DNA from: Bacteroidales bacterium
Lineage (GTDB): Bacteria; Bacteroidota; Bacteroidia; Bacteroidales; ML635J-15
Reading direction: 5' to 3'
DNA: 5,125 bases
Assembly: GCA_028696755.1 (NCBI GenBank)
Contig: JAQVGK010000296.1
Location: forward strand, 1 to 5,125
Below, piece by piece: positions 22 through 5,124 of the stretch. The notes below the pieces were generated by a model that saw nothing but the letters and a program-made list of their open reading frames with translations, did no database searches and was not told the DNA's origin. Positions within the stretch are counted from its first letter, which is position 1, and the number at the start of each line of letters is the position of its first letter. The translations under genes were made by a program, and so were the position numbers.

Positions 22-957
22 GTGTATAAATCACTGCGCAACTATATTGACAGACTTCATCTTTTGGTAAAAAGAATAACTGATCGAATTATTTTACCAG
101 GCTTTAAAGGAGTATCTCTTTATTATATCGGTGCGTTTTTTATAAAGGGACTAAGCAAAGGATCGGTTTCGATGCGAGCATCATCTGTGGCATTTAATCT
201 CTTTGTTTCGCTTTTTCCTGCGCTAATTTTCCTGTTTAGTTTAATCCCATTTATCCCAATCGAAAACTTTCAGTACGAATTATTTAGTGTGCTTGCCGAA
301 GTATTGCCAGGATCGGCTTACGACCTAATGTACGAAACAATTACCGATACAATTATGACACAGCGAAGCAGCATTCTTTCTCTCGGTTTCTTATTGATGT
401 TGTTTTTCTCGTCAAATGGAATAATGTCGCTAATCGAAGCATTTAACAATACATACCATCAGTTCGAAACACGAAAAGCTATCAGCATTCGACTTATATC
501 GGTTTTACTTGTTATTATTTTGAGTTTTCTATTGATGATTGCAATTTCTTTAATTGTTATGGGCAACAGCTTTTTTGTACGATTCATAACAAATCATCCA
601 AATTTAGACGACAGCAGTGTATTGTATTTTATTGTTGGATTTCTGAAATGGGGACTGATAATTCTACTGTATTTTTTGGCAATATCCTTTTTGTACTTCC
701 TCGCACCAACAAAAAAGAGCAGATTTCGATTTATTACCCCGGGAGCAATTTTTGCAACATTCCTGCAAATTGTTACTGTTTTGGGATTTACTTATTATGT
801 TAATAACTTCGCACAGTACAACAAACTCTATGGATCTATAGGAACTGTAATTGTGGTTATGATGCTGATTTACATCAGTTCACTTTCTTTGATTCTGGGC
901 TTTGAATTAAACGTGAGCATTTTGACAGGAAATAAGAAAATTTCGAAAAAAAAATAA
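22..957 (+). CDS. YihY/BrkB-family inner-membrane protein
   Basis: A 311-residue polytopic membrane protein of the YihY/virulence factor BrkB family; the exact function of the family is not settled. The N-terminal 50 residues are basic and probably cytoplasmic and include a PGFKG turn (26-30). The family-like block around residues 51-80 (RASSVAFN, then SLFPALIF and SLIPFIP) starts the first membrane span. Hydrophobic spans lie at about 58-80, 117-140, 155-182, 199-228, 238-262 and 273-298, six in all, and the tail is lysine-rich (KKISKKK). Length is normal for the family. The start is GTG at 22: an in-frame TGA at 16-18 rules out an earlier start, and the first ATG (172) would remove the conserved N-terminal stretch. 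No Shine-Dalgarno sequence is visible. The stop is TAA. The gene stands alone here, 109 bp before the next plus-strand gene. Family assignment is firm from sequence pattern, the role is not. Confidence 0.9.
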   Translation: MYKSLRNYIDRLHLLVKRITDRIILPGFKGVSLYYIGAFFIKGLSKGSVSMRASSVAFNLFVSLFPALIFLFSLIPFIPIENFQYELFSVLAEVLPGSAYDLMYETITDTIMTQRSSILSLGFLLMLFFSSNGIMSLIEAFNNTYHQFETRKAISIRLISVLLVIILSFLLMIAISLIVMGNSFFVRFITNHPNLDDSSVLYFIVGFLKWGLIILLYFLAISFLYFLAPTKKSRFRFITPGAIFATFLQIVTVLGFTYYVNNFAQYNKLYGSIGTVIVVMMLIYISSLSLILGFELNVSILTGNKKISKKK

Positions 958-1066: not shown

Positions 1067-3181
1067 ATGAAGAAACTATTACTAATTATTTCAGCAGTTG
1101 TTTTATCATACTCTCTTTTTGCACAGCCTACTGTTGCCGAAGATTTTACAATAACTGACATTGACGGAGTCGAACATAATTTGTTCACTTATCTTGATGA
1201 CGGGAGGTATGTTTTGTTAGTATTTTATCTGGATGGTTGAGGCAGCTGTATAGCGTCTGTCCCGACGTTCAATAATATCTACAGTGAATTTGGTTGTAAC
1301 GAATTCGAATTAGTTGTAATTGCGGCCTTTGGATATGGTGAAACCGACGAAGATGTGATTGCATTTGAAGAAGAAGCTCCTGCAGATTTTCCTATGGTAA
1401 GTGCTGTTGAAGGCAATGGAGATGAAGTTATCGCTTATTATGGTATTGAATCTTTCCACGATGTTGTATTAATTAAACCCGACCGTGAAGTGGTTTGGAA
1501 TAGTGCTGATGTTGATTTGGAGAATGTAAACGATCTTGTTGAACAGGGACCACATCAAAATGCATGTCCAGACGATTGGCCGATAGCTGGCTTTTCTGGT
1601 GATCCATTAGTAATTCCAATCAATACTGGCGTATTCTTTACCGACGAGTCACAAAATCCAATAAATCAATGGTATTGGGAGTTTGAAAATGGAACACCAG
1701 CAACTTTCAACGGTCAAAATCCACCAGAAGTAATTTACGATGTTCCTGGTTATCATAATGTAAAACTTACAGTTAAAAATGAGTTCGATAACGAAAACGC
1801 TTTAACCAAAAATGATTACATATTAGTTTATGAGATAGCCGATACTCTGCCTGTTGCATGGTTTTCGGCAAATCAGGTGATTGTAATAGCAGGAAGCTCG
1901 GTAAACTTTACCGATCTTAGCTGGGATTTTCCGTTCGAATGGAGATGGGCTTTCCAAGGTGCAGCTCCTGCAAACGCAGTAAACCAACATCCTCAAAATG
2001 TTGTTTATAATAGCCCAGGCGAATATGATGTTCAACTGATTGTTCGAAATTCGCAAGGTTATGACACACTTTTAATCGAAGATTATATTAGAGTTATCCC
2101 CGAAGTTGGTGACGAAATTCCAGTTGCAAATTTTACAGCACAAAACCGACTGATTAAAAGAAATACCGAAGTTGTCTTCCAAGACTTATCAACAAATAAT
2201 CCAATGTTCTGGGCTTGGGAATTCGAAGGCGGTGATCCGTTTACGTCTAACTCTCAGCTACAACCTGGCGGAGTACTTTATGCAAACACAGGATTTTTCG
2301 ATGTTACTTTAAATGTTGGAAATGTTAATGGTTCCGATATGCTTACCAAAAGAGACTATATTGTTGTTTACGACTCTTTTGTAGGTAGCGTTTGTGATAC
2401 CATCGGCAATCTGCTCGAGGGTGAAATCCCTTACGCTATGCAAATTAACGGCATGACTGGCTATTATGGCGGTCAAAATAGTGATAGAATATCAATGTAT
2501 GCCGATTATTATGATTTTCATACATTTAACGAAGTACGTGGTGTGATTGTTCCTGTAATAAGTGTTGGACATATCTCTAACAGTTCTTACATAAGATTCC
2601 TTACTTGGGATGGAGCTGATAATAAACCAACTACAATTCTTTCCGACCAAAAAGTTTATCTTAGAGATTTACGCGACAATTACTTGCAAGTGATAATGTT
2701 TGACGAACCTCTCGAAGTTGATGGACCGTTCTACCTAGGCTATTCGATTAACTATGCCGACGGTGACGAATTCGTTGTTGGAATGGCTCCAAACAGAGGC
2801 CACGGTGGTACAAATACTTTGTTTGTTTACAAAGATGGAAACTGGCAAAGTTCTTCTACTGCATACAATGTTTCAACATCTTCGGGTATCAGACCAATGA
2901 CTTGTTTGGTTGGTATCGAGGATGAAACAATTGAAGAAAATACTGGAGTTTATCCAAATCCAGCAAGCGACAGATTGTATGTTGTAAACAACTTAAACTT
3001 TGATCATGGCGATTTTGTGGAAATTTTCGACAGAACTGGCAAAACAGTTAAAATGCAAATGGCAGAACCTGGCGAAACAGAAATTGAATTAAATACCGAA
3101 GATATTGCTCCAGGTGTTTATTACGCCAGAATATTTACAAAAGGAAAACTGATAACCGAGAAAATCAGCATTATCAGATAG
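1067..3181 (+). CDS. Candidate secreted selenoprotein: thioredoxin-like (UGSC), three PKD domains, T9SS sorting domain
   Basis: A 704-residue product if TGA at codon 58 is read as selenocysteine. Residues 1-19 are a signal peptide (MKKLLLIISAVVLSYSLFA, cut before Q20). Residues 21-165 form a thioredoxin/AhpC-TSA-like domain: EDFTITDIDG, strand YVLLVFY, active site U58-G-S-C61, helix ASVPTFNNIYSEFGC, strand LVVIAAF, then YGIESFH and VVLIKPDREVVW. The usual cis-proline is His131. PKD domains lie at about 172-255, 262-344 and 352-435, each with a W-x-W core (WYWEFENG, WRWAFQGA, WAWEFEGG) and a closing DYI-V strand. Residues 443-616 are a beta-rich domain I cannot name. Residues 625-704 are a type A T9SS sorting domain (VYPNPASDRLYV, DRTGK, APGVYYARI, KISIIR). 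The ATG at 1067 is chosen because it supplies the signal peptide in the same frame; starting at GTG 1355 would cut the thioredoxin fold and lose export. Likely an extracellular or surface thiol/selenol redox protein; the substrate is unknown. If TGA is not decoded, this is a broken gene. Confidence 0.8.
1238..1240 (+). other. In-frame TGA, candidate selenocysteine codon (Sec58)
   Basis: This is the only in-frame TGA between ATG 1067 and TAG 3179-3181. The residues around it read YLDG-U-GSC-IASVP, which places it at the first cysteine of a CxxC thioredoxin active site (compare WCGPC in thioredoxins). TGG encodes all the tryptophans in the gene, and another gene in the window ends in TGA (3174-3176, minus), so a general TGA-to-tryptophan code does not explain it. 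Alternatives are a Cys-to-stop mutation (TGT or TGC to TGA) or a base-call error. Confidence 0.75.
1241..1285 (+). promoter_or_regulatory. Candidate bacterial SECIS stem-loop
   Basis: The upper hairpin is 1252-1257 (AGCGUC) paired with 1264-1269 (GACGUU), including one G-U pair, around the six-base loop UGUCCC (1258-1263). It begins 11 bases after the UGA. G1259 is the second loop base, 19 positions past the UGA. Bacterial SECIS elements are short stem-loops just after the UGA with a G at the top of a small loop, so position and shape fit. A possible lower stem pairs 1245-1250 with 1280-1285, but with a lopsided internal loop. A competing fold pairs 1241-1245 with 1257-1261. Bases 1241-1269 are about 59% G+C and use GCG, CCG and ACG in a gene that mostly prefers A- or T-ending codons. 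Confidence 0.6.
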
Positions 3182-3731: not shown

Positions 3732-4214
3732 TTAATATGGATAATTTGAGAGAGCATAATACTCATCGTCATAATACTGATTTGAAGTTTTACCAAACAT
3801 AATGTAATATCCTGGATGATCTTCGTCTTCGAATATGCTCAAGTTAATGGAAACGGACATCCAATACATACCATAAGGTAAATCATCCTGGTAGATTACA
3901 GATCCAGAATTTATTTTAACTGTTGCAGTCTCAGGATTAACAGTGCCACTAACATTAACCCTCGAAACATATTCTTCCCCATCAAGGTTGAAATTTGTTA
4001 AAGCGACTCCTGTAAATGATCCATCACTATCATCATAAACAATATTATACAATTTCTCGGTACAAATACAGTAACCGCTGTCAAAAGCATCGGCTCTGCT
4101 TTGAGAACCACCCTTCCAGCTTGATTCCATAACTGATTCTACTGTTTGAGCAAGCGATAATGCTGAGCTAAAAAGAACAAATAAAAAGGCTAAAATAATT
4201 TTAGAGGTTTTCAT
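3732..4214 (-). CDS. Exported beta-rich protein of unknown function
   Basis: A 160-residue protein that I do not recognise. Residues 1-22 are a clear signal peptide (MKTSKIILAFLFVLFSSALSLA, cut before Q23), so it is exported. The mature part has a short region with SSWKGGSQSR (31-40), a C-x-C pair (Cys49 and Cys51, YCICTEKLY), and alternating strands (FTGVALTNFNLDG, YVSRVNVSG, ATVKINSG, YWMSVSINLSIF, YYIMFGKTS), suggesting a small beta-sandwich or barrel. The C-terminus is rich in tyrosine and aspartate (QYYDDEYYALSNYPY). There is no lipobox and no T9SS sorting domain. The ATG at 4214 follows from the signal peptide. The gene lies 52 bp after the serpin stop on the same strand and has a promoter-like element in that gap, so it may be transcribed alone or with the serpin; an intrinsic terminator follows it. 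Export is well supported, function is open. Confidence 0.8.
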   Translation of the reverse strand: MKTSKIILAFLFVLFSSALSLAQTVESVMESSWKGGSQSRADAFDSGYCICTEKLYNIVYDDSDGSFTGVALTNFNLDGEEYVSRVNVSGTVNPETATVKINSGSVIYQDDLPYGMYWMSVSINLSIFEDEDHPGYYIMFGKTSNQYYDDEYYALSNYPY

Positions 4215-4266: not shown

Positions 4267-5124
4267 TTAAGGATTTTTCACAACACCCTCGAATAAAATA
4301 ATATTTGTATCAGATTCGCGAATAATAAAAACAAATGGACGGTTGGCGATTATAGTAATTGGTACGTCGGGGATACTAGATGTTGTTGCAAATTCAACAG
4401 CAGTTACAGCAGTAGCTTCGGTTCCTGCCTCATCAACTTCGATATAAGTTTTATGTATCACACGTGAAACAAATAAGCCTCCACCAGAGTTAATGCCACT
4501 TAAATCGGCCACTCCATCCGAAAACAAATCGGTCATCCCCATGTTTTGCAGCGGAGTATTAAGTAAGGTCTCGTACTCAAATTTCCATTTTGGCATAGAA
4601 AATAACACGCTGTCTTCGGTCATTGCATCTGTTAGCTGATTCCAATACTCGCTATCTAGTTGGCTTATTAATTCTCCAGGTGTTGAACCATATGCTGGGA
4701 TGAGAATATCCATAACATAATTTCCACGTCCATACGGAAGTTCAACAATTGATACTTCCTCGTCTATGTAATATTTGAGTTTAGTTTCAAGCTTCATCAT
4801 ATCGACTTGAACAGTGCTATTATCCGATAAGTAGAAGCTACGCTGCTCTGTATTATCAGGATTGAATTCGTATTTCCATTCGCCATAAAAATAAACAGCA
4901 TTAATAAGATACATAACAGTCTCGGCAGGAATAGAATTAATTATTTTAGTAATTTTATCATTTGTTTTATCGGCCACCCAATTATTTATAATGTTCACCG
5001 ATTCGGGATTTGCAAAATCGAGAGCTTGCACTTGCGCATTATAATACTCCACATTCACATCAAGAAAATCCTGTAAAACGTTAAACTGATTGTGATACCA
5101 AATTGAGTTTGCGATTGAAAGCTG
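4267..5124 (-). CDS. Serpin (serine/cysteine protease inhibitor), 5' end outside the window
   Basis: The frame is open to the right edge, so 285 residues are visible and roughly the first 80-120 of a typical 380-400-residue serpin are missing. In order: LSIANSIWY, YYNAQVQALDF and INNWVADKTNDKI (helix region), the NAVYFYGEW shutter block, ELPYGRGNYVMDILIP, a FSMPKWKFEYE strand, and LQNMGMTDLFSDGVADLSGI. Next come VSRVIHKTYIEVDEAGTEA, leading into the reactive-centre loop, and the C-terminal serpin signature ANRPFVFIIRES with ILFEGVVKNP. The hinge GTEATAVTA carries mostly small residues from P15 to P9, as in inhibitory serpins that trap a protease by loop insertion. The loop is about four residues longer than in human alpha-1-antitrypsin and has no basic residue near P1 (TTSSIPDVP), so a trypsin-like target is unlikely. 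A GTG at 5058 lies inside conserved sequence and is not the start. Whether it is exported or a lipoprotein cannot be seen. The stop is TAA. Confidence 0.93.
   Translation of the reverse strand, partial: QLSIANSIWYHNQFNVLQDFLDVNVEYYNAQVQALDFANPESVNIINNWVADKTNDKITKIINSIPAETVMYLINAVYFYGEWKYEFNPDNTEQRSFYLSDNSTVQVDMMKLETKLKYYIDEEVSIVELPYGRGNYVMDILIPAYGSTPGELISQLDSEYWNQLTDAMTEDSVLFSMPKWKFEYETLLNTPLQNMGMTDLFSDGVADLSGINSGGGLFVSRVIHKTYIEVDEAGTEATAVTAVEFATTSSIPDVPITIIANRPFVFIIRESDTNIILFEGVVKNP

Follow-up and report, generated by a model that had tools for sequence, protein, structure and literature searches.

Thioredoxin-like selenoproteins with a UxxC motif are already known. A 2026 review lists two predicted families of this kind, a Prx-like thiol:disulfide oxidoreductase (PF00578) and a Redoxin family protein (PF08534; PMC13188914, Table 1). 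The gene described here has in common with them the Pfam families (PF08534 at a score below its cut-off), the UxxC motif and the occurrence of Cys homologues. It is unlike them in being fused to PKD repeats and a type IX secretion system (T9SS) sorting domain, in its predicted export and in belonging to the Bacteroidota. No entry in Table 1 of the review involves T9SS or PKD, and the main text of that paper mentions neither Bacteroidota nor Bacteroidetes. The same table includes the GSU2204 MtrB/PioB-type protein, the ExtKL cytochrome and the FCYXU TonB-dependent receptor, whose names suggest an envelope or surface location. However, these are different kinds of protein and none is given there as T9SS cargo.

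The phylum has been reported to be without the selenocysteine (Sec) trait. In the accessible portions of these papers, a survey from 2006 did not detect the trait in Bacteroidetes (PMC1794560), a 2015 paper states that Bacteroidetes lack it (PMC5322559) and a 2016 paper records one Bacteroidetes genome with an orphan SelD (PMC5029168). Likewise, the part available of a further study describes tRNA-Sec in another organism and not in its Bacteroidota (PMC12016528). A literature search for Sec utilization together with Bacteroidota gave no match. No report of a T9SS selenoprotein was found either, in a search that took in few subscription papers and no preprints.

Two individual features also recall described proteins. 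The four letters UGSC are shared with the UGSC-containing protein NF041046 (GOS selenoprotein family). Membership was rejected, as NCBIfam scans up to E 0.01 gave no match and the motif varies among orthologues (UGGC, UGTC, USGC). The fold of the thioredoxin domain is like that of the ResA/StoA/TlpA thiol-disulfide oxidoreductases, which are small Cys proteins and are not known to carry PKD or T9SS parts. Although the folds are alike, a score of 40.2 bits against a cut-off of 170 led us to reject membership of the ResA subfamily NF002854.

The gene and its reading frame

The window, by which we mean the whole stretch of DNA that was analysed (5,125 nt), contains a gene that very probably encodes a selenoprotein, with type IX export of the product predicted. 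We put the probability at roughly 0.94 for the joint reading, which combines decoding by SelB and a hairpin, type IX export and redox chemistry at Sec58/Cys61. The computed basis consists of the codon itself, homology, position-specific conservation of TGA, RNA constraint, machinery in relatives and the T9SS tail. From these we infer selenium insertion in the window's own organism, a surface location, and the chemistry and substrate. The features are as follows.

22..957, + strand: BrkB/YihY-family membrane protein, the upstream neighbour (PF03631), conserved for TGA and Cys orthologues
1067..3181, + strand: predicted selenoprotein gene, 704 codons plus stop, with signal-peptide-like start, Trx/AhpC-like domain, PKD repeats and T9SS sorting domain
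1067..1126, + strand: N-terminal signal-peptide-like segment, residues 1-20, judged by eye
1136..1492, + strand: AhpC-TSA/thioredoxin-like domain, residues 24-142 (PF00578, AlphaFold model)
1238..1240, + strand: TGA codon 58, predicted selenocysteine, the U of UGSC; sole stop position in the alignments, Cys in relatives
1247..1249, + strand: TGT, Cys61, partner cysteine of UxxC, invariant in both alignments (A1, A2)
1252..1269, + strand: predicted bacterial SECIS hairpin, 6-bp stem AGCGUC/GACGUU, loop UGUCCC beginning 17 nt past the UGA
1253..1267, + strand: codons 63-67, GCG TCT GTC CCG ACG, inside the most synonymously constrained stretch in TGA orthologues
1595..1810, + strand: best PF00801 PKD match, residues 177-248 (Pfam), one of three PKD stretches altogether
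2948..3172, + strand: T9SS type A C-terminal sorting domain, residues 628-702 (PF18962, TIGR04183)

A single frame runs from ATG 1067 to the TAG ending at 3181, and its sole internal stop is the TGA of codon 58. A first-pass annotation of the same DNA had described one frame broken by that TGA alone, which the sequence confirms. It had ended its feature at 1560, a position that approximates the end of the thioredoxin-like domain, but the gene itself extends to 3181. With TGA read as U, the translation is 704 aa long and contains VFYLDG-U-GSC. The database protein of this contig (P0006) has 608 aa and starts at GTG 1355, so the catalytic half has been lost to the gene caller.

What if the database entry is right and the locus makes two products, with translation from ATG 1067 stopping at the UGA to give a short secreted N-terminal piece, and a second protein starting at GTG 1355? 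The 608-aa open reading frame exists, and recoding of UGA is given as 30-40% efficient in vivo in the accessible text of one paper (PMC4513850), so some truncated product is to be expected. However, no signal peptide is apparent by eye in the GTG frame, although its T9SS tail requires export through the Sec pathway. It also begins in mid-domain, and the Cys relatives are single full-length proteins. We regard the two-product scheme as the least probable of the alternatives. Like the pseudogene or error and the code reassignment taken up below, this split gene was considered and rejected on the evidence given with each. A single read-through selenoprotein is the preferred reading.

Two further genes lie on the minus strand of the window. 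A serpin gene at 4267-5124 (PF00079, E 7e-91) is truncated at the contig end, and a homologue with 60% identity occupies the corresponding position at L002, one of the orthologous loci. The other gene, at 3732-4214, encodes a protein of 160 aa that begins, by eye, with a signal-peptide-like segment and matches no Pfam family at E 0.01; L002 has two adjacent copies of it.

Codon 58 and the RNA that follows it

Four full-length Cys homologues (702-706 aa) are 60-62% identical to the window protein over one alignment (A1), full-length Cys relatives in general covering 58-62%, and its UGSC aligns with CGGC or CPSC in the four. Residue 58 falls at the first Cys of their CxxC site, exactly where the first-pass annotation had placed the TGA, and in Cys relatives the codon is TGT or TGC. 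This raises the possibility that a Cys gene has suffered a nonsense mutation or a sequencing error, and that the window holds a broken or misread CGSC protein. The contig apparently comes from a metagenome and TGA is one base away from TGT and TGC. What contradicts a mutation or error is that four orthologues from other assemblies have retained TGA at the same codon.

The wider family extends this pattern. Among GTDB species genomes, 108 relatives were identified in a scan, from which 80 loci were retained. Residue 58 is encoded by TGA at 10 loci (11 genes), by TGT/TGC at 69 (best match) and by a Ser codon at one (L010), and each TGA gene in this set has one stop within its aligned part. After a wider survey the set comprised 128 distinct homologous stretches, in which 19,225 residues are aligned. 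These contain 32 in-frame stops, and 32/32 are TGA at residue 58, though local alignments may end before a stop, so that stops at the ends are missed. The codons at this site are TGC 48, TGT 42, TGA 32, other sense codons 6 and TAA/TAG 0; the sample is enriched for TGA genes, so 32/128 is not a frequency. Twenty-five matches in the wider survey have one TGA each and no TAA/TAG, and all 25 align at residue 58. One listed match in a whole-protein search across the order (G231, in the PKD part) contains a TAG. The argument that a random stop would rarely hit the catalytic codon is thus borne out, and scattered other stops are absent from the aligned thioredoxin domain in the 128 stretches. A mutation or error is very improbable, as it would have to recur at one codon in 32 distinct homologues whose aligned domains are otherwise free of stops.

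A different possibility is that UGA has been reassigned as a sense codon (e.g., Trp in code 4) or is read by an unusual Cys- or Ser-tRNA(UCA). This predicts TGA elsewhere in the genes as well, whereas the aligned domain has TGA at the catalytic Cys site only. The tRNAs themselves are considered in the next section.

Two side observations concern TGA genes outside the orthologous group. A more distant group of TGA thioredoxin-like genes from four genomes (G357, G290, G194, and G286; loci L226-L229) has the motif U-S-[SF]-C and open frames of 427-440 aa. Another genome has two adjacent TGA thioredoxin-like genes (G169:C27:89933-91988) and a third, full-length one on contig C25.

The window gene and its TGA orthologues (L001, L002, L009, and L011) form a set of five with a BrkB gene upstream in each, as in Cys orthologues. 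Across 18 loci, BrkB is directly upstream of the Trx-PKD gene in 11, namely the four TGA loci just named and Cys loci L003-L008 and L014. Three full-length TGA orthologues have 70-74% protein identity to the window and an intact frame with no frameshifts; L009 is truncated by its contig end and was left out of this range. L011 aligns with the window across the thioredoxin domain (58% identity), although Pfam assigns it to no Trx family at E 0.001. With column 58 excluded from the tree, all five TGA orthologues cluster (88/94, not a starred branch) amid Cys orthologues. With the distant TGA forms L131 and L132 included, two changes are needed (2-3 in bootstraps, 5.9 in shuffles), but well-supported branches force only one change, and long branches meet. 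Downstream of the TGA, dN is 0.18-0.29. Only dN was used, because the synonymous sites are almost saturated, no values came from YN00 and several of the dS estimates by NG86 are undefined.

The nucleotides just after the TGA behave differently in TGA and Cys genes. When the gene is scanned in 680 windows of 8 codons across the five TGA orthologues, the seven highest for synonymous identity are those that start at codons 57-63, with a same-codon fraction of 0.89-0.93 vs. a gene mean of 0.507. The corresponding stretch does not stand out in six Cys orthologues (0.49-0.59 vs. a mean of 0.522). Synonymous constraint confined to the TGA orthologues also argues against a mutation or error. Codons 63-67 read GCG TCT [G/A]TC CCG ACG in 5/5 TGA orthologues, and this region pairs as CGUC-U[G/A]UCCC-GACG with the loop starting 17 nt past the UGA.

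How well does this hairpin fit the bacterial SECIS (bSECIS) model? As set out in the part of the review available, the model has a loop of 3-9 nt, a stem of 4-16 bp, a G at one of the first two positions of the loop, a spacing of 16-37 nt and an MFE <= -7.5 (PMC13188914). The window hairpin, with a loop of 6, a stem of 6, a loop starting UG, a spacing of 17 nt and -9.1 kcal/mol, conforms to all four bSECIS rules. None of the other four TGA orthologues (0/4) conforms to every rule: the loops of L002 and L009 do not have a G at either of their first two positions, and the energy rule is missed by L001 and L011. Over the wider set, all four rules hold for 8/32 TGA genes vs. 3/90 Cys genes.

A broader measure separates the two groups more clearly. 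The 45 nt past codon 58 fold more stably in the 32 TGA genes than in the 90 Cys genes (codon-shuffle z of -1.11 and 0.03, p 1.4e-6), the sequences being related and not independent. The separation is weaker under a tighter definition of the hairpin, with its loop at 14-26 nt and < -2 kcal/mol (14/32 TGA, 28/90 Cys, p 0.0014), and a hairpin with its loop at 14-26 nt is absent from 10/32 TGA genes. Some distant TGA genes have different stems at 17-19 nt, e.g., CGGUC-GCACC-GACCG in L132. A first fold of 1232-1290 alone was unremarkable (z -0.93, other pairings), and an Rfam search of the window with E as high as 1 produced two chance-like matches, with no tRNA and no SECIS.

Selenocysteine machinery in related genomes

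The window itself has no tRNA in its 5,125 nt, and the machinery was sought in 25 related genomes, of which 10 carry TGA forms and 15 carry Cys forms. A tRNA-Sec occurs in 9/10 TGA genomes (at least 55.6 bits, anticodon UCA by ARAGORN) vs. 0/15 Cys genomes. Three of the 15 Cys genomes have matches of 47-48 bits, barely above the family cut-off, and the one examined (L090, G016) is a tRNA-Ser. selA and selB each occur in 8/10 TGA genomes and in 0/15 Cys genomes. selD is not discriminating, being above cut-off in 21/25 genomes and 10/10 TGA genomes. In the relatives, then, the machinery is present in most genomes with TGA forms, and its co-occurrence with them is another point against a mutation or error.

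Three exceptions give some support to reassignment. G003 has a TGA form and no match for tRNA-Sec, selA, or selB; G057 and G257 have TGA forms and no match for tRNA-Sec or selA. Each of these three assemblies is in many contigs. A fourth TGA genome, G006, has tRNA-Sec but no match for selA or selB. However, the UCA tRNAs examined are tRNA-Sec by both Rfam and ARAGORN, and tRNA-Sec and selA share a contig in 35 of the 39 genomes that have both. Reassignment of UGA is therefore even less probable than a mutation or error, and Sec decoding remains the preferred reading.

A survey of the Bacteroidota order to which G001 belongs gave a tRNA-Sec match in 46/393 genomes (E 3e-9 or better). ARAGORN confirmed 33 of the 46, selA is present in eight of the other 13, and the five weakest are counted on the match alone. 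This count calls for a revision of the remark in the first-pass annotation that selenoproteins are uncommon in Bacteroidota; in this order, the Sec trait seems to be much more frequent than older surveys indicate. Both this occurrence of the trait and the PKD/T9SS architecture appear to be new against the searchable literature. In 80 genomes of the order, selA occurs in 39/41 with tRNA-Sec (the 41 strongest matches) and in 3/39 without. One of these three, G108, yielded a tRNA-Sec in a lenient search. TGA thioredoxin-like genes occur in 16/42 tRNA-Sec genomes vs. 2/38 others (G057 and G257), for which Fisher's test gives p 0.0004 with genomes that are not a random draw.

The genes also lie close together. 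In G005 a TGA/T9SS gene adjoins tRNA-Sec, selA, and selB, divergently; in G007 one lies past tRNA-Sec, selA, selB, and selD on the opposite strand; and in G006 one adjoins tRNA-Sec. Altogether, six genomes (these three, G180, G286, and G368) have a TGA thioredoxin-like gene on the contig of the tRNA-Sec, no more than about 12 kb away. Such clustering argues against mis-binned sel genes. It seems likely that Sec decoding is a real and recurrent trait of environmental Bacteroidales-type bacteria, and that many of their selenoproteins are type IX-secreted surface thioredoxins, sometimes beside selC-selA-selB.

A separate observation concerns G010 (L060, Chitinivibrionales), which has two each of tRNA-Sec, selA, selB, and SelD. 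Both SelD genes contain an in-frame TGA, and there are two adjacent UGPC thioredoxin-like genes as well.

A predicted exported redox protein

The proposal that a thioredoxin-like domain spans the TGA was upheld by domain and fold analysis. AhpC-TSA (PF00578) matches residues 24-142 with 31.4 bits (cut-off 26), while PF08534 scores 18.6 bits, under its cut-off of 26.6. An AlphaFold model of residues 21-170 has a thioredoxin fold with mean pLDDT 96.6, and the nearest solved fold is ResA (1su9_A, TM 0.71 by query and 0.77 by target), to which the window protein also has a profile match at E 3e-23. Residue 58 (38 in the model) immediately precedes helix 39-54, which we take to be the usual place of the attacking residue. 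The domain model superseded a poor full-length model (mean pLDDT 65). The latter has a helix at residues 2-17 with low confidence at 13-18, the signal peptide being judged by eye, and its fold search gave TM 0.28 or less among the matches listed, all repeat-rich proteins with poor overlaps.

At the other end of the protein, Por_Secre_tail (PF18962) matches residues 628-702 with 46.1 bits (cut-off 27) and TIGR04183 scores 41 bits (cut-off 23), a score that qualifies as a T9SS type A sorting domain. The tail recurs in 9/9 other TGA proteins scanned. Eight are above the Pfam cut-off, and the ninth (L060) scores 23.1 against 27 yet exceeds the TIGR04183 cut-off. PKD domains occur in 7/9. A search for SprA (TIGR04189) found it in 15/15 genomes, of which 13 have TGA forms. 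Taken together, the thioredoxin fold, the T9SS tails and SprA point to an exported redox enzyme, surface-located or secreted, that probably uses Sec58 and Cys61.

How might such a protein be made and used? SelB and a Sec-tRNA(UCA) would read the UGA at 1238-1240 as selenocysteine, directed by the hairpin at 1252-1269 just downstream. The 704-residue product would then be exported via its putative signal peptide and afterwards the type IX route, to be secreted or anchored at the cell surface. Within the ResA/AhpC-like domain, Sec58 would be the attacking residue and Cys61 its partner, with a Sec58-Cys61 selenenylsulfide forming between them. Judged from the fold, reduction of disulfides or peroxides is the likeliest activity, and it would take place outside the cytoplasm. 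Perhaps the PKD repeats serve as a spacer or a binding stalk.

The candidate selenoprotein of the first-pass annotation is thus supported by Cys relatives, retained TGA, the lack of scattered stops and the machinery of relatives. If the reading is true, it defines an extracellular, outer-surface class of selenoprotein in a phylum that has been reported without the Sec trait. Selenocysteine would be placed outside the cell, on a multi-domain protein exported by the T9SS. The contig's database entry represents the part after the TGA alone, and other such genes may be similarly cut. Finally, since a single syntenic locus has both Sec and Cys orthologues, it would offer a natural test of what an exported enzyme gains from Sec over Cys.
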